In this document: in pieces, positions 1,233 to 10,623 of the stretch
Numbering within the stretch: the stretch's first letter is position 1
How the letters are laid out: the number at the start of each line of letters is the position of its first letter
Assembly (NCBI GenBank): GCA_023151275.1
Contig: JAKLJI010000001.1
Coordinates: 582,409 to 646,408 of the forward strand
Length of the DNA: 64,000 nucleotides
Origin: Bacteroidia bacterium
GTDB lineage: Bacteria > Bacteroidota > Bacteroidia > UKL13-3
Reading direction: 5' to 3'
Program-made: the position numbers and the translations under genes
The notes under the pieces: generated by a model
Databases searched by the model: none
What the model was told of the DNA's origin: nothing
What the model saw: the letters and a program-made list of their open reading frames with translations, nothing else

Positions 1233-2266
1233 TGCGCTACTCCTACTTCAAACATGAATTAAAATTCTCCTTTGATGCACGAACATCACGGGGTGAGATA
1301 AAAACCCATACCGCCTGGATCTTAAGGCTTGAACACCAGAATAGAGTGGCTTACGGTGAAGCTGCTCCGCTCAAAGGCCTAAGTATTGATGATGTGCCGG
1401 ATTTTGAAGTTCAGCTGAGTTCTTTGATTGACCTTTTAAATCAGGGCCAATCCCTGGAGCATTTTGATTTGGAGCGGTTTCCTTCCCTGCGTTTTGCGTT
1501 AGAAACTTTGCAGGCCGATTTTAAAGGTGGTGGTCAACGCAGACTTTTTAATTCGGAGTTTATTCAGGGAAAACCCATTCCTATCAATGGTCTGGTTTGG
1601 ATGAATGAACCTGAACCCATGTTAAAACAGGCTCGTGAAAAGGTTAGAGATGGTTTTGATGTGATTAAGTTTAAAGTGGGCGCCCATGATTTTGATGCAG
1701 AGTGCCGCATGCTCGAAGCGTTTAGGAAGGAATTTTCAGAATCGAAGGTGATTGTTCGACTAGATGCAAACGGGGCTTTTGATGCCGGTGATGCCCTGCC
1801 AAAGCTTAAGGAGTTGAAGCGTTTTGGCATTCATTCCATCGAACAACCCATTCAAACAAAGCAAGGGGAACTGTTTTCAGAAATCATTGCAAAATCGCCT
1901 GTGAAAATTGCTTTGGACGAAGAATTAATTGGCTTAAATCCGTTTACTCAAGGCGATAAATTACTCAAGCTGCTTAAGCCTGATTTTTTGATTTTAAAAC
2001 CCACACTGTTAGGTGGATTTGAGTATTCTGATGCTTGGATAAAATTTGCTGAAAACTACCAGATTGGATGGTGGGCAACCTCGGCGCTTGAATCGAATAT
2101 TGGCTTGAATGCCATTGCACAGTGGTGCTCCAGCAAAGCTAATCCGATGCCTCAAGGCTTGGGAACCGGCTCACTGTATTCAAATAATTTTAAATCCCCA
2201 CTTTTGGTTGCAAAGGGACAATTAACTTATCTTACTGGCGAAAACTGGCTAATACCGGTTAATTAA
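1232..2266 (+). CDS. menC: o-succinylbenzoate synthase
   Basis: Enolase-superfamily enzyme of menaquinone synthesis that dehydrates SHCHC to o-succinylbenzoate. The protein has 344 residues. The muconate-lactonizing-type signature is complete: KFK with K146 and K148, metal ligands D178 (RLDANGAF), E204 (SIEQP) and D229 (ALDEE), and the second catalytic lysine K256 (LILKPTLLGG). I chose the ATG at 1232, which overlaps the menA stop (TAATG). An upstream in-frame ATG at 1199 would lie inside menA and add 11 unrelated residues. It is co-directional with menA and ends 2 bases before the following kinase gene. The other men genes are not in this window. Confidence 0.93.
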   Translation: MRYSYFKHELKFSFDARTSRGEIKTHTAWILRLEHQNRVAYGEAAPLKGLSIDDVPDFEVQLSSLIDLLNQGQSLEHFDLERFPSLRFALETLQADFKGGGQRRLFNSEFIQGKPIPINGLVWMNEPEPMLKQAREKVRDGFDVIKFKVGAHDFDAECRMLEAFRKEFSESKVIVRLDANGAFDAGDALPKLKELKRFGIHSIEQPIQTKQGELFSEIIAKSPVKIALDEELIGLNPFTQGDKLLKLLKPDFLILKPTLLGGFEYSDAWIKFAENYQIGWWATSALESNIGLNAIAQWCSSKANPMPQGLGTGSLYSNNFKSPLLVAKGQLTYLTGENWLIPVN

Positions 2267-2268
2267 AC

Positions 2269-5200
2269 ATGGAGAACTCCGGAAATATTTCCAGATTGCT
2301 GCGAATCCTTACTGCTGTAATGCTCTTGTTCAGCTGGGGCTTTGGCATGTTTCAGGCTTTTTTTGGCGATTATACTTCGGCAGGATTGTCGTTCCTGATG
2401 TCGCTTCCTGTTTTGGTGATGGTGTATTGGGTGCAACAAGGAAAGAATCAAAAGGCACTGGGATTTATTCTCAATGCCGTTCTCATTATTGCATTTCTTC
2501 TCGATACCGGTTTCAAAAAAGGAACAGGTGAATACCTGTACCTTTTTCCTTACCTGATTGGTTCTTTTTTGTATGAGTATCCCCTCCGAAATCGAAGCCG
2601 TATTGCGCCGCTCTTGCTTGCATCTTTGGTTATTCTGCTTTGTAACCTGGGCTGGTCTCCTCAATTGGCCCTCCACCATGTAAAAGGTGCCATATCACTC
2701 AATTTGTTGTTTTTTATAAATCTGAGCGCATCGGCTGTTGCCGGTATTTTTCTATTGTATTATTTCAGTGTGCAGCAATCTGAAATGCAACTCAATCTGC
2801 AAAAACAGCAAGACAATTATTCCGCTTTGATTGAACAAAGCCGCGATCAGATTTGGTCTATCGATAAAGATTTTAACCTCTTATCCTTCAACAAAAATTA
2901 CGAGGGAGTTTATAAAGCATTTTGGGGCCATACTCCTAAAATTGGTATGAATATCATGGCCGATAATAAAAGCAATCCTGCCGTGTATGAGTATTGGTTA
3001 AGCCTCTATGAACGGGCCTTGGCAGGAACAAGTTTTCGCGAAGTTCAATCGTATGAGTATGGCGGCCTTACGCATTTTCTTGAGTTTAGTTTTGTTCCGG
3101 TTTATACTTCAGGTGCCATTAGCTCAATTGTTGTTAGCGCAACCGATATTACTGAGCAGAAAACGCGTGAGCATGAATTGCAATTGTATGCCGAAAGCTT
3201 AAACCTTTTGTTGAGTTCAACCGGAGATATCATTTTTGAAATGAACGAACTGGGAATTTGCGAGCGGGTATGGCATGCAGAAGAGGTTGAATTGGTAGAT
3301 GACGTAAGCTACTTCATCGGTAAGTCTGTTCGTGAGTTGTTTGATAATCCCTTTAAAATACGCTTGGGTGATCAGTTTGATCAGGTCATAAGAACCGGTC
3401 AGTCCAAAGTGTACGAATACAGTCATCCCTTTCAAGGCAGCCTTCATCATTACAGCTGCAAGCTGAGGATAATCCGCAATAGCCAACCTTCGCGTGTTGC
3501 CATTGTTCTTGAAGATATTTCATACCGCAAGGAGATTGAAATCAATCAAGCCAGACAAACCTTATTCCTGAACAAGTTGATTGACCATATTCCGTTGGGA
3601 ATTTATGTAAAGAACGTGGCAGATGATTTCAAATACACCCTTTGGAATCGTGAACTGGAGCTGATGTTTGGACTCATGCATGCCGACGTAATTGGAAGAA
3701 CAGATGAAGACCTTTTTCACAACGAGGGTGAAATATCTGATTATATCTTCACTGATAAACTCGTTGCCGAACAAGGCGAAACCTTGCTCATCAATAAGCT
3801 GAATGTTTCGCTGGGCGATAAACGCATCATTGCCCGAAGCTTCAAAATTCCGGTTTTCAATAGCGAAGGAAAAACCGAATTAATTATCGGTATACTCGAA
3901 AATATTACCGATTTTGTTCAAGCGCAGCAAAATCTTGAATTGGCAGAAATGCGCTGGCAATATGCACTCAGCGGCAGTCGCGATGCAGTTTGGGACATTA
4001 ACCTGGAAACACGTGAGGTGTATTTTTCTCCCTTATTGAAGAAAATGCTGGGCTACTTAGACCATGAAAATCCGGAATTGGTTTGGGAGGAAATTATTCA
4101 TCCCGATGATTTTAAACATGCTTGGAAGTTGTACCAAGACCATATCCAAGGTAAAACCCCATACTACGAAGCAGAATACAGATTCAAGAAAAAGAATGGA
4201 GACTACATCTGGATTTTAGATAGGGGTAAAGTTGCTGAAACCAATGAAGAGGGCTCAGCACTTCGTATCATTGGAACCTTCCAAGACATTAGCTATAGAA
4301 AGCATTTGGAAGAACAGCTTATTAATGCCAAGGAAAAAGCCGAGGAAGCATCGCGGGCAAAGAGTAATTTCCTTTCAACAATGAGCCACGAAATCCGCAC
4401 TCCTATGAATGCGGTGAATGGAATTATCAAATTGCTCTTGCAGGAAAAGCCACAGGAGCATCAATTGGAAAATTTGAATGCCTTACTTTATTCTTCCGAA
4501 CAATTGATGTTTTTGTTGAATGATATTCTCGATTTTTCAAAAATAGATGCGGGTAAACTTGAAAAGGATGAACGCAATTTTAAACCGGAGGAGCTGTTTA
4601 GAAATTCCGTGCAAACCATGTCGGGACAAGCTTTTGACAAGGCTATAAAATTGAGTTTGGATTACCGAAAGCCTGCACCTGAATTTGTATTTGCTGATAG
4701 GCACCGCATTGGTCAAATTGTAGGAAACCTTTTATCGAATGCCGTAAAGTTTACCGAAGAAGGGCAGGTTGAAATGCGCGTTGCTTTTGTGCCCATTGAA
4801 CAAGGAAGGTATTTGTTGCGCGTTGAAGTAGAAGATACAGGAATTGGGATAGAAACAGCTAAGCTTGACTCCATCTTTGAATTGTTTACCCAAGCATCTT
4901 CCGAAACTACCCGTAAGTTTGGAGGTACAGGTTTGGGCCTAGCCATATCAAAGAAACTAACTGAATGGTTGGGTGGAGAATTGAAAGTTGAAAGTACTCC
5001 GGGAATAGGTACCCGATTCTGGTTTGAAATTCCTGTTCGTGAAGGTTCAGATGATTTAGCAACCATGCGCTCGGATGAAAAGCCGGATCAGCTTAAACCC
5101 CTAAGTGGAATGCGCATTTTGGTTGTAGAAGACAACCGCATGAATACCTATGTGCTAAGCAAGTTTTTGAGCAGGTGGGAAATAAAATACGATGTGGCAG

Positions 5201-5502: not shown

Positions 5503-5562
5503 GCCAGCTCAAACTGCGAAATAAACCCCTTTCTTCCTACATTTTATTATTAAAAAACCACC

Positions 5563-5582
5563 AGCTGCCTTGCAGCTTTTTT
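5563..5582 (+). terminator. probable intrinsic terminator inside repeat copy R1
   Basis: AGCTGC and GCAGCT pair perfectly around a CTT loop and are followed by six T residues. It lies 60 bases past the hybrid kinase stop. The same position in repeat copy R3 (7672) keeps five to six base pairs. Copies R2 and R4 have lost most of the left arm, so termination there would be weak. Confidence 0.5.
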
Positions 5583-5672
5583 GTGCCTTGTATTTTCTAC
5601 TTCCGCAAAAATTAACATACAGGTATTGCCGAAAAAGTGTAAATTAGATTTTGTAAAGTTCTCACTATGAAA
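5567..5672 (+). repeat. cassette-boundary repeat, copy R1
   Basis: First of four copies of a ~105-bp sequence running from GCCTTGCAGCTTTT to the ATG of a short leader frame. It joins a terminator-like hairpin, a conserved AACATACAGGTATTGCCG block and a promoter-like block (TTG, 16 bases, TAGATTTTG). Similarity to R4 extends about 45 bases further upstream (ACATTTTATT..., ACCACC). R1 and R4 therefore keep the full left end, while R2 and R3 start abruptly inside partner genes. Downstream of R1 about 100 more bases are shared with R2. Confidence 0.85.
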
Positions 5673-5753
5673 CCATACTACCTAAACCCATATTCTTTAC
5701 AGCAAATACATTCAAGCATTCCGGCTGTAAAAGCTGCTAGAAAGTATTTTTAA
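5667..5753 (+). CDS. possible 28-residue leader peptide in R1
   Basis: Short frame starting at the ATG that closes the repeat: MKPYYLNPYSLQQIHSSIPA followed by VKAARKYF. The same position in the other copies also starts with ATG and reads MKQLYFNPY (6672), MNHFYLNLL (7773) and MKSYYLLLP (9417). The shared M(K/N)xxYLNP pattern suggests translation, but the DNA itself is conserved, so similarity alone does not prove coding. It ends 18 bases before the lipoprotein start. Confidence 0.3.
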   Translation: MKPYYLNPYSLQQIHSSIPAVKAARKYF

Positions 5754-5771
5754 CCATCTAAATTTTTACTG

Positions 5772-6365
5772 ATGAAAAATCTATTTTATTTATTCATTCT
5801 TCTTTTTATCATTTTTTCAGCACATACTTCTTGCAAAAATTTTGATGTTGAGGATTGCCCGCCTCCTGATACCATTTATTTAAAAGTAGGTACAAATGAA
5901 TTAAAAAAAATCCCTTATACAGGGTTAGATACTTTGATGTTTAAAAATGAAACTAACGGAATTGTCTATACTTTTATTGGACAAGGAATTGATACCAGTT
6001 TAACCTATTACCAACGTTGGTTTCCGGATATGTGTCCCGAAGAATTTCAAAAGTGTCAGTCGAAGCTTTATAAATATGTTTCATTAACATTTCCAAAACC
6101 AATTTTTTTACAGGCTAGCCATCCATCAGGCAATCAAGGCGTTTCATATCTGAACATTCGATTTGATGGTGTAGATTATTCAAAAAGTTTAGGAACCGTT
6201 GGTTTTGGTGGCTATACAGACACCATTAATGGGGTGGTTTATCATAATATTAATGATGTTAGATATTACGATGATCATACAAAATACAACCATATTAAAT
6301 ACAATATTTCAGAAGGAATTCTTCAGGTTGTGTTTAGAAATAGTATATACTCCAAACAAAAATAA
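5772..6365 (+). CDS. array lipoprotein A1, function unknown
   Basis: A 197-residue predicted lipoprotein with a hydrophobic signal and the lipidated Cys at residue 21 (SAHTSC). The mature part starts KNFDVEDCPPPDT and contains IPYTGLDTLMFKN, a pattern (PYxGxDTLxFxNxxGxxxxF) shared with the other three lipoproteins of the array. That pattern is common in small Bacteroidota lipoproteins of unknown role. Cysteines cluster in FPDMCPEEFQKC. Residues 1-34, the GIVYTFIGQGIDTSLTY block and the LGTVGFGGYTDTINGVVYHN block are identical in A2, while the stretches between differ strongly. The gene begins after repeat R1 and is followed 11 bases later by a truncated partner gene. Base composition is AT-rich compared with the flanking housekeeping genes. 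I do not recognise a function. Confidence 0.75.
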   Translation: MKNLFYLFILLFIIFSAHTSCKNFDVEDCPPPDTIYLKVGTNELKKIPYTGLDTLMFKNETNGIVYTFIGQGIDTSLTYYQRWFPDMCPEEFQKCQSKLYKYVSLTFPKPIFLQASHPSGNQGVSYLNIRFDGVDYSKSLGTVGFGGYTDTINGVVYHNINDVRYYDDHTKYNHIKYNISEGILQVVFRNSIYSKQK

Positions 6366-6376
6366 ATAGTAGACCT

Positions 6377-6652
6377 ATGAAAGCACGCTTATTTACACTA
6401 CTCCTTTTATTGGCAACAAGTTATACAAATATTAGTGCACAGTATAAAAATGGAGCTTGGGGAATTAATGAAATACCAGGACAAAATACCACTGCCCCTA
6501 TGGTTTTGTTTAACAGACCAACACTGAAAGAGGATACTGCATTTGTGAAAAATGCAATTAGAAATAAAATGCCTTGCAGCTTTTTTTGTGCCTTGTATTT
6601 TTTACATCCCCAAAAGTTAACATACAAGTGTTGCCGAAAAAGTGTAAATTAG
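6377..6652 (+). CDS. secreted partner B1, truncated after ~64 codons
   Basis: A signal peptide (LLLLLATSYTNISAQ) is followed by YKNGAWGINEIPGQNTTAP and FNRPTLKEDTAFVKNAIRNK. The frame then runs directly into repeat R2 at 6571, and the last 27 residues (MPCSFFCALYF...) are translated repeat sequence rather than protein-family sequence. It is nearly identical to the first ~64 residues of B2 and corresponds in position to B3. The junction removes the rest of the original gene, so this is a 5' remnant, although the start and signal peptide are intact. It sits 11 bases behind A1, with the same spacer as between A2 and B2. Confidence 0.55.
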   Translation: MKARLFTLLLLLATSYTNISAQYKNGAWGINEIPGQNTTAPMVLFNRPTLKEDTAFVKNAIRNKMPCSFFCALYFLHPQKLTYKCCRKSVN

Positions 6653-6677
6653 ATTTTGTAAAGTTCTTACTATGAAA
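6571..6677 (+). repeat. cassette-boundary repeat, copy R2
   Basis: Second copy of the ~105-bp repeat, beginning inside the B1 frame at GCCTTGCAGC without the left hairpin arm seen in R1. About 100 bases beyond it, up to the A2 start, also match the DNA between R1 and A1, including ATTCAAGCATTCCGGCTGTA. R1-A1-B1 and R2-A2-B2 are therefore one tandemly duplicated unit of roughly 1.0 kb. Confidence 0.85.
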
Positions 6678-6746
6678 CAACTCTACTTTAACCCATATGC
6701 TTTAAAGCATATAAATTCAAGCATTCCGGCTGTAAAAAGCTGCTAG
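6672..6746 (+). CDS. possible 24-residue leader peptide in R2
   Basis: Frame MKQLYFNPYALKHINSSIPA followed by VKSC. It aligns with the R1 leader but has one extra A in an A run, which changes the last codons and shortens the peptide. It ends 31 bases before the A2 start. Low confidence. Confidence 0.25.
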   Translation: MKQLYFNPYALKHINSSIPAVKSC

Positions 6747-6777
6747 AAAGTATTTTTAACCATCTAAATTTTTACTG

Positions 6778-7368
6778 ATGAAAAATCTATTTTATTTATT
6801 CATTCTTCTTTTTATCATTTTTTCAGCACATACCTCTTGCAAAAATTTTGACGTTGAGGATTGCCCGCCTCCGGATACTGCATATTATGATTTTGATATT
6901 ACTGAGGTGGGTAAAATTCCTTATCATGGATTCGATACCCTAATGTTTAAAAATGAGGCCACCGGAATTGTATATACTTTTATTGGGCAGGGAATAGATA
7001 CCAGTTTAACCTATGACCAACGTTGGTTTCCGGATATGTGTCCAGAAGAATTTCAAAAGTGTAAATCACAAAAGTATAAATACGTATCCACAGAATTCTT
7101 TTATCCAATATATGTTCAAGCTTTTATGCCTTATGGAGGAAGGAGTAGTGCAGATTTAACCATCCAATTTGAAGGAGTAAACTATTTTATGGATTTAGGA
7201 ACCGTTGGTTTTGGTGGCTATACAGACACCATTAATGGGGTGGTTTATCATAATATTAATGATATAGATAAGGATTTTAGCACATCCAAAGACCACATTA
7301 AATATAGCCTTTATGATGGAATTCTTAAAGTAGTTTCAGGGAACAAAATATACTCCAAACAAAAATAA
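6778..7368 (+). CDS. array lipoprotein A2, function unknown
   Basis: A 196-residue lipoprotein paralogous to A1. The signal and first 34 residues are identical, with the lipid-attachment Cys at residue 21. Blocks identical to A1 (VYTFIGQGIDTSLTY, QRWFPDMCPEEFQKC, LGTVGFGGYTDTINGVVYHN) alternate with divergent blocks at residues ~35-50, 95-130 and 155-175. This mosaic suggests recombination or diversifying change between copies rather than uniform drift. The identical LGTVG...ND block is also identical at DNA level over about 69 bases. It lies behind repeat R2 and is followed 11 bases later by partner B2. Function is unknown; it is probably anchored in the outer membrane. Confidence 0.75.
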   Translation: MKNLFYLFILLFIIFSAHTSCKNFDVEDCPPPDTAYYDFDITEVGKIPYHGFDTLMFKNEATGIVYTFIGQGIDTSLTYDQRWFPDMCPEEFQKCKSQKYKYVSTEFFYPIYVQAFMPYGGRSSADLTIQFEGVNYFMDLGTVGFGGYTDTINGVVYHNINDIDKDFSTSKDHIKYSLYDGILKVVSGNKIYSKQK

Positions 7369-7379
7369 ATAGTAGACCT

Positions 7380-7721
7380 ATGAAAGCACGCTTATTTACA
7401 CTACTCCTTTTATTGGCAACAAGTTATACAAATATTAGTGCACAGTATAAAAATGGAGCTTGGGGAATTAATGAAATACCCGGACAAAATACCACTGCCC
7501 CTATGGTTTTGTTTAACAGACCTACACTGAATGAGGATATTGCCTTTGTTAAAAATGCAATACGTAATAAAAACAAAGAATTGCCAATTTTCCAAATATA
7601 CAAGGAAATTATTATTACAATTTCGGAAACTAACTCTCTACTTCCCCACCAAGGTGATATCTCTGTTGGCTGCCTTGCAGCTTTTTTTGTGCCTTGTATT
7701 TTCTACTTCCGCAAAAATTAA
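7380..7721 (+). CDS. secreted partner B2, truncated after ~100 codons
   Basis: Same signal peptide and first ~64 residues as B1. It then continues further into the gene (NKELPIFQIYKEIIITISET) before running into repeat R3 at 7672. The last ~16 residues (CLAAFFVPCIFYFRKN) are read from the repeat. It is therefore a longer 5' remnant of the same ancestral gene, cut at a different point. No catalytic motif is visible in what remains. It is co-directional with A2 and spaced 11 bases from it. Confidence 0.55.
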   Translation: MKARLFTLLLLLATSYTNISAQYKNGAWGINEIPGQNTTAPMVLFNRPTLNEDIAFVKNAIRNKNKELPIFQIYKEIIITISETNSLLPHQGDISVGCLAAFFVPCIFYFRKN

Positions 7722-7777
7722 CATACAGGTATTGCCGAAAAAGTGTAAATTAGATTTACTAAAGCTCTTTAAATGAA
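7672..7777 (+). repeat. cassette-boundary repeat, copy R3
   Basis: Third copy, entering the B2 frame at GCTGCCTTGCAGC; five to six base pairs of the terminator hairpin are kept. It matches R1 closely through AACATACAGGTATTGCCG and GTAAATTAGATTT, then diverges after TAAAGCTC. The sequence between R3 and A3 is unlike that after R1 and R2. Confidence 0.85.
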
Positions 7778-7874
7778 CCATTTCTACCTAAACCTCCTAC
7801 AACAAATAACTGTTAAATACAGGGCTTTTGGCTCTGTGAATGGTATACAATTTAAACCCATAAAAAATAACTAA
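7773..7874 (+). CDS. possible 33-residue leader peptide coupled to A3
   Basis: The frame starts at the repeat-borne ATG and reads MNHFYLNLLQQITVKYRAFG followed by SVNGIQFKPIKNN. Its TAA stop overlaps the ATG of A3 (TAATG), the arrangement used for translational coupling in menA-menC of this window. This exact coupling is the best argument that the leaders are translated. No other support is visible. Confidence 0.35.
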   Translation: MNHFYLNLLQQITVKYRAFGSVNGIQFKPIKNN

Positions 7875-8461
7875 TGAAAAAATTACTGTTTTTAATTTTA
7901 ATTGGCCTGTTCCTTTTTTCTTGTAAGCCAGATAAAAGCTGTAGCAGAGAAGATGAAATTACTTATGAAAATATCCCAGACAGTAATATCAGCCAAATTC
8001 CCTACAAAGGAGACGAACTATTAAGTTTTGTAAATCAAACGGGCGATACCGCAGTTTTCAAGTGTACTGGGTATAACAATTATTATGATACAGAAAAAAA
8101 AGCTGAGGGTAGCAATGGCTGTACTTATTGGGTTATCACCAAAACCCAGCAAATTGATTTTACTTTTATTGACACCGCAAATGAAAATAGGAATTTTAGG
8201 GTGAAGTATGAGGCTCCAATTGTTATTTCAAGTCCAATCTTAATTTTAGATTTATTTGTACCAAGTTCAAATTATGTTGTTGGAAGAGGATATGGATATT
8301 TTTATAATCCGGTAAATTTTGATTCGTTAAGAATTGGAAATGGTAGCTATGTCTATGGTTCATTTTTAGACGAAACACGAACCTCATTTTACAACACAAA
8401 GATTGGAATAATTTTATTTGCGGACCAATTTCAAAACAGGTGGACACTTTTAAACGAATAG
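7874..8461 (+). CDS. array lipoprotein A3, function unknown
   Basis: A 195-residue lipoprotein with its lipid-attachment Cys at residue 17 (LFLFSC). It is clearly a distant member of the A family: IPYKGDELLSFVNQTGDTAVF takes the place of IPYTGLDTLMFKN... in A1. Mid-protein Cys and aromatic residues (NGCTYW) follow, and a beta-rich C-terminal half shows no known domain. Overall identity to A1 and A2 is low. The start overlaps the stop of the short leader frame, and the gene is followed 4 bases later by partner B3, the same A-then-B order as in the first two units. Confidence 0.7.
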   Translation: MKKLLFLILIGLFLFSCKPDKSCSREDEITYENIPDSNISQIPYKGDELLSFVNQTGDTAVFKCTGYNNYYDTEKKAEGSNGCTYWVITKTQQIDFTFIDTANENRNFRVKYEAPIVISSPILILDLFVPSSNYVVGRGYGYFYNPVNFDSLRIGNGSYVYGSFLDETRTSFYNTKIGIILFADQFQNRWTLLNE

Positions 8462-8465
8462 CTTT

Positions 8466-9269
8466 ATGAAAAGGATAATTATACTACTCGCATTTATTAA
8501 CATTTTTTATTCTAGTGTTCATGCACAATGCCAAAACAAAAAAAGTTCAGATGCGCCAGGTGAACGTGTAAACAATAGATTGAGACCCGGAAATGCACGT
8601 TACGGAAATCCTTATACCATGTTTAAAATGGATGTTAAGGATTTTGATTATACTTTAGCTTTGAGTCAAATTAGACAAAATATACTTAATGGAAAACCAA
8701 AAATAGACCAAAAAGACTTCCAAAACGACTATGCTGATTTATACCATCAGATATTTGTAGCAGCAACAGATGCCAGTGAACCGGAAGTTTGTCCGGATTT
8801 ACAGGATGAGGAAAATTGCCTGCATCCACAATGGGTAAAAAACAATGCTATTGTTTATTTGGTTGGATTAAAGTACCAGGTAAATAGCAGCAATATTGGT
8901 GAATTTGTTGAAATGAATGATAGCATTAAGAATTACTATGCCGAAAGAGCTTATAAAGGTTTACAAAATCTGAACCCAAAAATTGAATCTTGTTGGGTTG
9001 GAGGGAGAAGTGATGGATGCAAAAATTTAAGAAATAAATCACCTCAATTGATCCAGTATTTACAGGCATATGATTTATTAAAAACAGGTGGAAAAATAGC
9101 CCATAACGCAGATGACAACAGTTCGGATGATTGCAACCCCAGAAATAAATTAAGACAATTTGCCGCTAACATGTATAGAAATTCAGACCCGATAATTAAT
9201 TCATCAAGTGGCTGGAAAAAGAAGCAAGGAATAATTTGTTCCAGTGTTTTGGGAATGGCTGCGATTTAA
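8466..9269 (+). CDS. secreted partner B3, longest array copy, probably C-terminally cut
   Basis: A 267-residue secreted protein with signal peptide IFYSSVHAQ. The mature part is helical and hydrophilic, with PYTMFKMDVKDFDYTLALSQ, LIQYLQAYDLLKTGG and GWKKKQGIICSSVLGMAAI at the very end. The last elements resemble, from memory, the N-terminal alpha-helical region of large secreted Bacteroidota proteins (polysaccharide-lyase-like toroids), in which the sequence continues well beyond GMAA. Here the frame stops at that point and repeat R4 follows 45 bases later. It occupies the same slot behind A3 that B1 and B2 occupy behind A1 and A2, although detectable similarity to them is slight. Function unknown. 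Confidence 0.65.
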   Translation: MKRIIILLAFINIFYSSVHAQCQNKKSSDAPGERVNNRLRPGNARYGNPYTMFKMDVKDFDYTLALSQIRQNILNGKPKIDQKDFQNDYADLYHQIFVAATDASEPEVCPDLQDEENCLHPQWVKNNAIVYLVGLKYQVNSSNIGEFVEMNDSIKNYYAERAYKGLQNLNPKIESCWVGGRSDGCKNLRNKSPQLIQYLQAYDLLKTGGKIAHNADDNSSDDCNPRNKLRQFAANMYRNSDPIINSSSGWKKKQGIICSSVLGMAAI

Positions 9270-9313
9270 CCCCAACCTTATTTCTACATTTTATTTTAGA
9301 AATACCACCGGCT

Positions 9314-9420
9314 ACCTTGCAGCTTTTTTTGTGCCTTGTATTTTCAACTTCCCCAAAAATTAACAGACAAGTATTGCCGAAAAAGTGTAAATTAGTTTTA
9401 CTAAAGTCCTTTTTCTATGA
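9314..9420 (+). repeat. cassette-boundary repeat, copy R4
   Basis: Fourth copy, from ACCTTGCAGCTTTTTTT to the leader ATG at 9417. Similarity to R1 also covers the ~45 bases upstream (TCTACATTTTATT, ACCACCGGCT), so this copy keeps the outer left end. The promoter-like block reads TTG, 16 bases, TAGTTTTAC. Confidence 0.85.
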
Positions 9421-9467
9421 AATCCTATTATCTGCTCTTGCCCTTAATGGTAACTGTCACGAAATAG
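9417..9467 (+). CDS. possible 16-residue leader peptide in R4
   Basis: Frame MKSYYLLLPLMVTVTK, starting at the repeat-borne ATG. It is the shortest of the four and ends 56 bases before A4. Only its first six residues recall the other leaders. Low confidence. Confidence 0.2.
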   Translation: MKSYYLLLPLMVTVTK

Positions 9468-9523
9468 AATACCGCTTTTGATTGAAAATGATTAAAAAAG
9501 CACAGTCTTCCTTATAAATAACT

Positions 9524-10117
9524 ATGAAAAACTTTTTCGTCCTTTTGTTCTTGTTGCCAATGCTAACCGCATGCAAAAAGGAGTATGGTTCGGGCAAAGA
9601 TACCCAAACCTACTACGACCTAACAGCTGAGCAACTGGCTAAAACACCCTATTTCAATAATCCGGCTTTTGATACCCTGCAATTTGTTAGCAATAAAGGT
9701 GACACCCTTACTTTTACAAAACTTGCAACAGTATCTAGTTATTCCAAAACATCAAGCAGCAATTGTCCCGATTGCCCAACCAATTATTATTACTTCCAGG
9801 AAATAAAAAACACTTATCAAACCATTCAAGGTGAGGGGAAATTTGAGATGATTCAAAAGCGAAAATCATCCTACAGTAATTTTGAATTTTCATTTAACAA
9901 TTCAACCTTTTTTCTATCCGATGACCATATTGGATGGGCAGGATATCCCACATTTGTTGGCAGTTTAACATTAAATAATAGAACCTTTAAAGAAATAATT
10001 ATTATTTATGAATTTTTTGGAGATACGAGTTCAAATGCTGCGTATATAAATGAGAAAGATGGTCTATTTTTCTTTAAGGACTATAATAACAAATTAAACT
10101 ATTTAATTAATAAATAA
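9524..10117 (+). CDS. array lipoprotein A4, function unknown
   Basis: A 197-residue lipoprotein with its lipid-attachment Cys at residue 17 (PMLTAC). It shares the family pattern (TPYFNNPAFDTLQFVSNKGD, then TLTF) and a Cys pair in SSNCPDCPTNYYYF that corresponds to the Cys-containing block of A1 and A2. The C-terminal half is beta-rich and ends in an Asn/Lys-rich tail. No partner gene follows; instead the coding sequence ends in a short TAA repeat and then 24-bp tandem repeats, so the array stops here. Function unknown. Confidence 0.7.
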   Translation: MKNFFVLLFLLPMLTACKKEYGSGKDTQTYYDLTAEQLAKTPYFNNPAFDTLQFVSNKGDTLTFTKLATVSSYSKTSSSNCPDCPTNYYYFQEIKNTYQTIQGEGKFEMIQKRKSSYSNFEFSFNNSTFFLSDDHIGWAGYPTFVGSLTLNNRTFKEIIIIYEFFGDTSSNAAYINEKDGLFFFKDYNNKLNYLINK

Positions 10118-10152: not shown

Positions 10153-10315
10153 ATTCTGGAGCAAACTAGGCCAGTGATTCTGGGGTAAATTAGGCCACTC
10201 ATTCCGGAGCAAACTAGGCCAGCCATTTTGGAGCAAACTAGGCCACCATTTACGTGTTTTAACCTTCAGGTTTTGTATCCAACAAGATGTCATTCTGACA
10301 CAAATTAGGCCACTT
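10153..10315. repeat. 24-bp tandem repeats, possible IS21-type terminal array
   Basis: Four contiguous 24-bp units begin at 10153, 10177, 10201 and 10225. Each reads ATTCTGGAGCAAACTAGGCC plus four variable bases, with small changes. A fifth unit (ATTCTGACACAAATTAGGCC) lies at 10292 after a 43-base gap. Clustered subterminal repeats with a GGCC core are known at the ends of IS21-family elements in Bacteroidota. No istA or istB gene is nearby, so this would be a solo end or relic. Iterons or regulator sites are alternatives. There are no unique spacers, so it is not a CRISPR array. Confidence 0.55.
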
Positions 10316-10490: not shown

Positions 10491-10623
10491 CGCCCCTCGC
10501 GTTAGGGATTGCAGGGGAAATCCTTTTTTGCGCGGCTGGGACCGGCGGCTAGGGTCGGCAAAAAAGATTGGACCGGAAAGCCCGACCCCAACAAGGCCTT
10601 CGGCCTTCGTTGGGGGAACGCCC
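10491..10623 (+). repeat. GC-rich structured intergenic repeat, copy 1
   Basis: This is a GC-rich block in AT-rich noncoding DNA. ATCCTTTTTTGC pairs with GCAAAAAAGATT across an internal hairpin (GGGACC...GGGTC). A second strong hairpin at 10586-10615 pairs CCCCAAC plus AAGGCC with GGCCTT plus GTTGGGG, with one bulged C. Both ends carry CGCCC. The motif GCGTTAGGGATTGCAGGGGA and the later ATTGGACCGGAAAGCCCGAC recur in altered form at 60631-60660 on the minus strand. From memory, elements with GCGTTAGGGAT and GCCCGACC are dispersed in many Bacteroidota genomes; whether they are transcribed is not known to me. Confidence 0.6.

Follow-up and report, generated by a model that had tools for sequence, protein, structure and literature searches.

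A lipoprotein gene array in a Bacteroidia genome as a probable set of displaced 5' modules of a secreted-enzyme system

The window analysed here, a stretch of 64,000 nucleotides from a Bacteroidia bacterium, carries on its forward strand an array of four intact lipoprotein genes (A1–A4), each with a lipobox-like start, and three shorter frames (B1–B3), with a repeat (R) before every A gene. R1 (5515..5771), composed of a hairpin, a promoter-like block and a leader, and sharing its left part with R4, precedes A1 (5772..6365; 197 aa) and B1 (6377..6652). R2 (6570..6777), with half a hairpin, the promoter-like block and the A2 leader, precedes A2 (6778..7368; 196 aa) and B2 (7380..7721). R3 (7670..7873) stands before A3 (7874..8461; 195 aa) and B3 (8466..9269), and R4 (9258..9523) before A4 (9524..10117; 197 aa), which no B frame follows. 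The original prediction of four lipoproteins and three secreted partners was right about the genes and frames and their places, but B1–B3 (91, 113 and 267 aa) are 3'-truncated starts of a protein of ~1,940 aa and not whole partners; a full B is absent from the array. B3 covers positions 1–246 of the 1895-position B model. B homology stops at ~6568 in B1, the remaining frame being R2, and at the joint to R3 near 7669 in B2; the ends of both frames are thus read-through into R. The front of B1 is of a different type from those of B3 and of the full-length B on contig C66. The strong divergence claimed for the lipoproteins holds for most pairs (20–30% identity, with A1/A3 at 25%) but not for A1 and A2, which are 72% identical.

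All four copies of R were recovered from the organism's own genome (3.9 Mb, 76 contigs) with a 131-bp query at E values of 2e-63 to 2e-33, too low for chance resemblance; this search and the alignment confirmed the copies predicted near 5567, 6571, 7672 and 9314. The terminator-like hairpin (AGCTGC-CTT-GCAGCT, then T) is intact in R1, only nearly so in R3, where it had also been described as intact, half missing in R2 and mismatched in R4. It is followed by a promoter-like TTG-19-TAnnTTTT block and the ATG of a short frame, both as first described, but the length of that frame is not conserved. Homology between R1 and R4 extends a further ~50 bp to the left, to about 5515 and 9258. Within the window R occurs only at A units, and the unit junctions end at or near its hairpin. 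Two shorter copies lie on contigs C16 and C66, each directly 5' of an A gene; the gene on C16, the nearest relative of A3, is interrupted by an IS3-like transposase. Stretches of IS3-like transposase (L005 about 1910-3068; L020 5224-5629) break this A3-like gene and adjoin a B3-like fragment on contig C48, possibly as two sides of one disrupted unit. R matched no known RNA family at E 1, and the sole RNA match was Flavo-1 (RF01705; 10494..10591, forward strand), past the array. A family-wide repeat was also rejected, as R of this genome had no match in the 57 relatives searched; each genus has its own R.

The left part of R3 matches R1 exactly over 75 bp despite the low identity of A1 and A3, and R3 then runs into a leader like that on C16 and C66. 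Units 1 and 2 agree almost perfectly at either end, but parts of the A middle are only 46–58% identical, with dS above 1 or saturated there compared with 0.1–0.2 outside it, so that A2 is a mosaic with respect to A1. The chimaeric R3 and the A1/A2 mosaic bear the signature of recombination, both at R and from unit to unit.

A complete B gene is present elsewhere in the genome. From its edge, contig C66 carries a partial A gene 92% identical to A4 (dN/dS about 0.19), a 169-aa B stump, R, an A gene and a 1938-aa B frame that includes a PKD domain and ends in a type IX sorting tail (TIGR04183, 27.3 bits against a cut-off of 23; Por_Secre_tail, 30.5 against 27). B3 aligns only to the first residues of this full B, as do B1 and B2, less clearly. 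On contig C24, a B remnant ~90% identical to residues 1025–1196 of the C66 protein is joined to the same 3' flank as the C66 gene. Flavo-1 follows in the same orientation 98 bp after the full B on C66 and about 110 bp after the remnant on C24, and its position past A4 therefore suggests that a full B formerly lay between A4 and 10494. Ten copies of Flavo-1 over the cut-off are listed in this genome. The copies just 3' of A-B loci, all in the same orientation, number three (window 10494-10591, L008 7942-8037 and G000:C24:23909-24006). Right after A4, at 10153-10313, the window holds a ~24-bp unit (GGAGCAAACTAGGCCA) repeated imperfectly, a putative end of an IS21-like element.

The A protein gave a confident, beta-rich structural model (pLDDT 93.7) with no PDB match (best E 0.2), and no Pfam or NCBIfam family matched it beyond chance level. 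Confidence in the B-front model is low (pLDDT 44.7). Its 15 top-ranking PDB matches, which span nearly the whole length, comprise alginate lyases, heparinases and dermatan sulfate epimerase (best E 6e-8). These matches agree with the conserved motifs GWKKNHG, YAEGPGYF and THEDDD-GSF. By sequence, the front matched no PDB entry and no Pfam lyase family up to E 10. B residues 1 to ~800 are predicted to form an alginate-lyase/heparinase-like domain. Heparinase II/III-like lyases fold as a toroid plus a beta-sandwich, and the predicted helical first half and beta second half of the front, together with the NHG, Y-EGP-Y and THEDDD-GSF motifs, would be in common with heparinase II/III and PL17-type alginate lyases; B differs from these in having no sequence-family match, in the fusion to a body of ~1,100 residues with a type IX tail, and in its pairing with A.

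Comparison among relatives separates a variable 5' part from a constant 3' part. In three species of one genus (G029, G077 and G076, the A gene of the last cut by a contig edge), the A proteins are 31–36% identical and B residues 1–800 mostly 30–60%, compared with mostly 85–100% from about residue 800 onward. At the DNA level, G029 and G077 are 90.6% identical along 3 kb of the B body; the 190 bp in front of A are 86% identical, and little is shared in the interval. This sharp breakpoint was seen in this one genus. Given the lyase-like matches of the front, the exchange edge near residue 800 would coincide with the end of the predicted domain. Trees of 15 B proteins point the same way: the type I fronts (..FDRH) form one group (support 96/95), whereas their bodies form one group in 0 of 200 bootstrap trees.

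The type of A follows that of the B front. The A gene lies directly upstream of B, often overlapping it by a few bases, and A proteins with the motif PYF[TN][NS] were paired with a type I front in 15 of 15 cases, a pairing found in 2 of 33 cases for the remaining A proteins (15/0 versus 2/31; Fisher p 1e-10, an optimistic value because the A/B pairs are related and not independent). Identities of A and B front were correlated across 46 pairs (0.42, p 0.003); the correlation of A and B-front distances given the B body was not significant in the 18 full pairs (0.12, p 0.14). Conserved R sequences also precede divergent A genes in relatives: in G012 and its congener G030, upstream stretches of 100–330 bp, mostly 80–92% identical, stand before A proteins that are 24–60% identical, and G012 has 16 matches to its own R, at least nine of them directly before A genes. 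These comparisons show modularity with a breakpoint near residue 800 in one genus, a conserved R before divergent A genes, and matching types of A and B front. The relatives make a strong case for cassettes. The proposal that recombination centred on R places new lipoproteins in a fixed context gains support from the A1/A2 mosaic, the chimaeric R3 and the additional R copies on C16 and C66; stronger support comes from the relatives, in which a separate R adjoins divergent A genes. Its exchanged unit needs correction, as what moves is A together with the B front (residues 1 to about 800), not the lipoprotein alone. The original interpretation is therefore partly supported.

A genes are distributed more widely than B genes. 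Relatives of B were found in 23 of the 64 genomes of the family, one of environmental Bacteroidota (E 1e-40), and in none of three other species of the same genus; searching at the level of the order gave the same 64 genomes. In all, 18 loci, all in Bacteroidota, were found among 84,980 species genomes, one of them in the complete chromosome of Bacteroidetes bacterium UKL13-3. A genes occur in 37 of 62 genomes, the largest number in one genome being 17. Thirteen genomes lack a lyase front altogether and yet carry A genes, as many as 14. A repeat confined to this locus, with the same four units in relatives, would have pointed to a single old duplication; instead R lies elsewhere in the genome as well, and the related species differ in their units or lack them. 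Most of these genomes are fragmented metagenome assemblies, one per species, whose contig breaks fall in these repeats. In the map of A and B frames, which covered about 50 loci, a truncated B was counted only if it neither lay at a contig edge nor continued in another frame. Nineteen truncated B genes were mapped in this way, in addition to B1 and B2 of the window, which are too short for the profile. An A gene lies directly upstream in 18 of the 19, and another A gene follows 16–371 bp downstream in 14. All but one (18/19) end at or before model position 383 of 1895, in the first fifth, and the remaining one ends at 661. Relatives also have A genes in plain tandem rows; L099 5522-7514 and L100 5833-9096 are rows of three and four A genes between housekeeping genes, with no B nearby. 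One 9,140-bp contig (L062; G077:C323) has identical first and last 108 bases, so that a B tail would lead into R-A-B'-R-A-B, either through repeat-limited assembly or as a circle or tandem. In this G077 assembly an A gene seems to come after a full B, and the order of stump before full gene is not absolute.

We propose that the locus is probably a row of 5' modules displaced from a secreted-enzyme system of modular build, in which A and the lyase front are exchanged as a cognate module and stranded A genes are kept by the logic of orphan immunity. A complete unit would consist of R, the lipoprotein gene A and a B protein of ~1,900 residues, with a variable lyase-like front of ~800 residues and a constant PKD and type IX tail. 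Because the type IX sorting signal is C-terminal, the tail has to stay constant and the front is left to vary, and the partner gene A would travel with that front. An incoming module would enter by recombination within the conserved B body at its right side and at R, or close to it, at its left side, and the replaced A with its B stump would stay upstream. A may bind its own lyase front, and stranded A genes may be retained as protection against the lyases of kin or competitors. The stranded genes are intact beside dead B stumps, and dN/dS of tandem A pairs in relatives is 0.34–0.46. Our best guess, by inference, is that A is an immunity or inhibitor protein, with a helper role not far behind.

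Such a helper role belongs to an account that retains module exchange and takes A as a working subunit of the lyase (an export chaperone, surface anchor or glycan-binding partner), extra A genes broadening the substrate range with no immunity involved. The close, often overlapping A and B genes, their matching types and the lipoprotein nature of A would all fit this account; the thirteen genomes that have A genes but lack a lyase front, and the intact A genes stranded beside dead stumps, fit it poorly, and we regard it as rather doubtful. We consider it unlikely that ordinary birth and death explains the array, through partial tandem duplications of promoter, A and B start, followed by divergence, decay and occasional gene conversion with no foreign modules. 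Duplications ending inside B would leave exactly such stumps, units 1 and 2, near-copies at both ends, could be plain duplicates, and relatives do have plain rows of A genes. However, adjacent units are mostly of different types (20–35% identity) while their R copies are 80–92% alike, and duplication does not account for B bodies that are mostly 85–100% identical joined at a sharp edge to fronts that are mostly 30–60% identical, as in the G029/G077/G076 mosaic.

Exchange between units, as seen in the A1/A2 mosaic and the chimaeric R3, would also be expected if the upstream units were silent cassettes donating by gene conversion to one expressed A-B pair, as in antigenic variation. This is quite improbable, since A genes persist in genomes without B and since each unit in the window, in contrast to silent donors, keeps its start codon, its promoter-like R and in many cases a terminator. 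The left junctions in G012 raise a further possibility. Five of its R copies have the same left end, an identical base of a palindromic ~60-bp element, and the truncated A or B genes upstream of them differ. In that genome the element occurs in 16 dispersed copies, and a Y1_Tnp (IS200-like) gene lies beside two of them (L106 462-989 and 1007-1221). Because of the dispersed copies and the adjoining transposase gene, the left edge of R in G012 may derive from REP-like elements. That a mobile element spreads whole R-A units, with this palindromic edge being of the kind mobilised by Y1 transposases, is very improbable, as the element was seen in one genome only, and R in the window lacks it and lies at A units alone.

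The exchange of modules of A and lyase front that we favour is not without precedent, contrary to the original statement that no described system has this layout. It closely resembles, in mirror image, the orphan cdiA-CT/cdiI and Rhs modules (PMC3150448), in which a giant exported protein has a constant part, a variable effector end and a small cognate-looking partner gene, displaced effector fragments stand in rows with their partner genes, and modules are exchanged between strains; here, likewise, truncated B genes follow an A gene in 18 of 19 cases and precede another in 14. The constant part of CDI and Rhs proteins is N-terminal and the effector C-terminal, a criterion from which the A-B system departs, as its variable part is N-terminal (residues 1–800), its partner gene upstream and its leftovers 5'. 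Unlike those systems, each A-B unit also has its own promoter-like R, a type IX export tail and a lyase-like putative effector, whose toxicity is hypothetical. Orphan cdiI genes protect (PMC3150448). The TANFOR polymorphic toxins of Bacteroidetes (PMC7073777) are similar in their phylum, giant size, hypothesised type IX export and polymorphic effectors, but in these the constant domain lies at the N-terminus and the toxin at the C-terminus, and an NCBIfam scan found no TANFOR domain in the full B. Bacteroidales with acquired interbacterial defence likewise gather partner genes without the matching effector, and their orphan immunity genes have been shown experimentally to protect against type VI effectors (PMC10470768, PMC12247911), whereas A is a lipoprotein with a hypothetical protective role.

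No type IX system of such a layout was found in the open-access literature. As a tentative suggestion, the A-B genes may represent a new class of type IX-borne polymorphic effector-immunity system, with a swappable lyase and lipoprotein immunity gene at the 5' end because the export signal is C-terminal, and with orphan lipoproteins that would protect against rival lyases. Known polymorphic effectors mostly have a constant front and a variable tail, and an inverted layout on type IX cargo would fit a simple rule by which the placement of the export signal determines the end that varies. It would make it possible to look for such systems throughout Bacteroidota, and the large natural set of matched enzyme and lipoprotein pairs would allow a test of whether the lipoprotein inhibits, escorts or protects.
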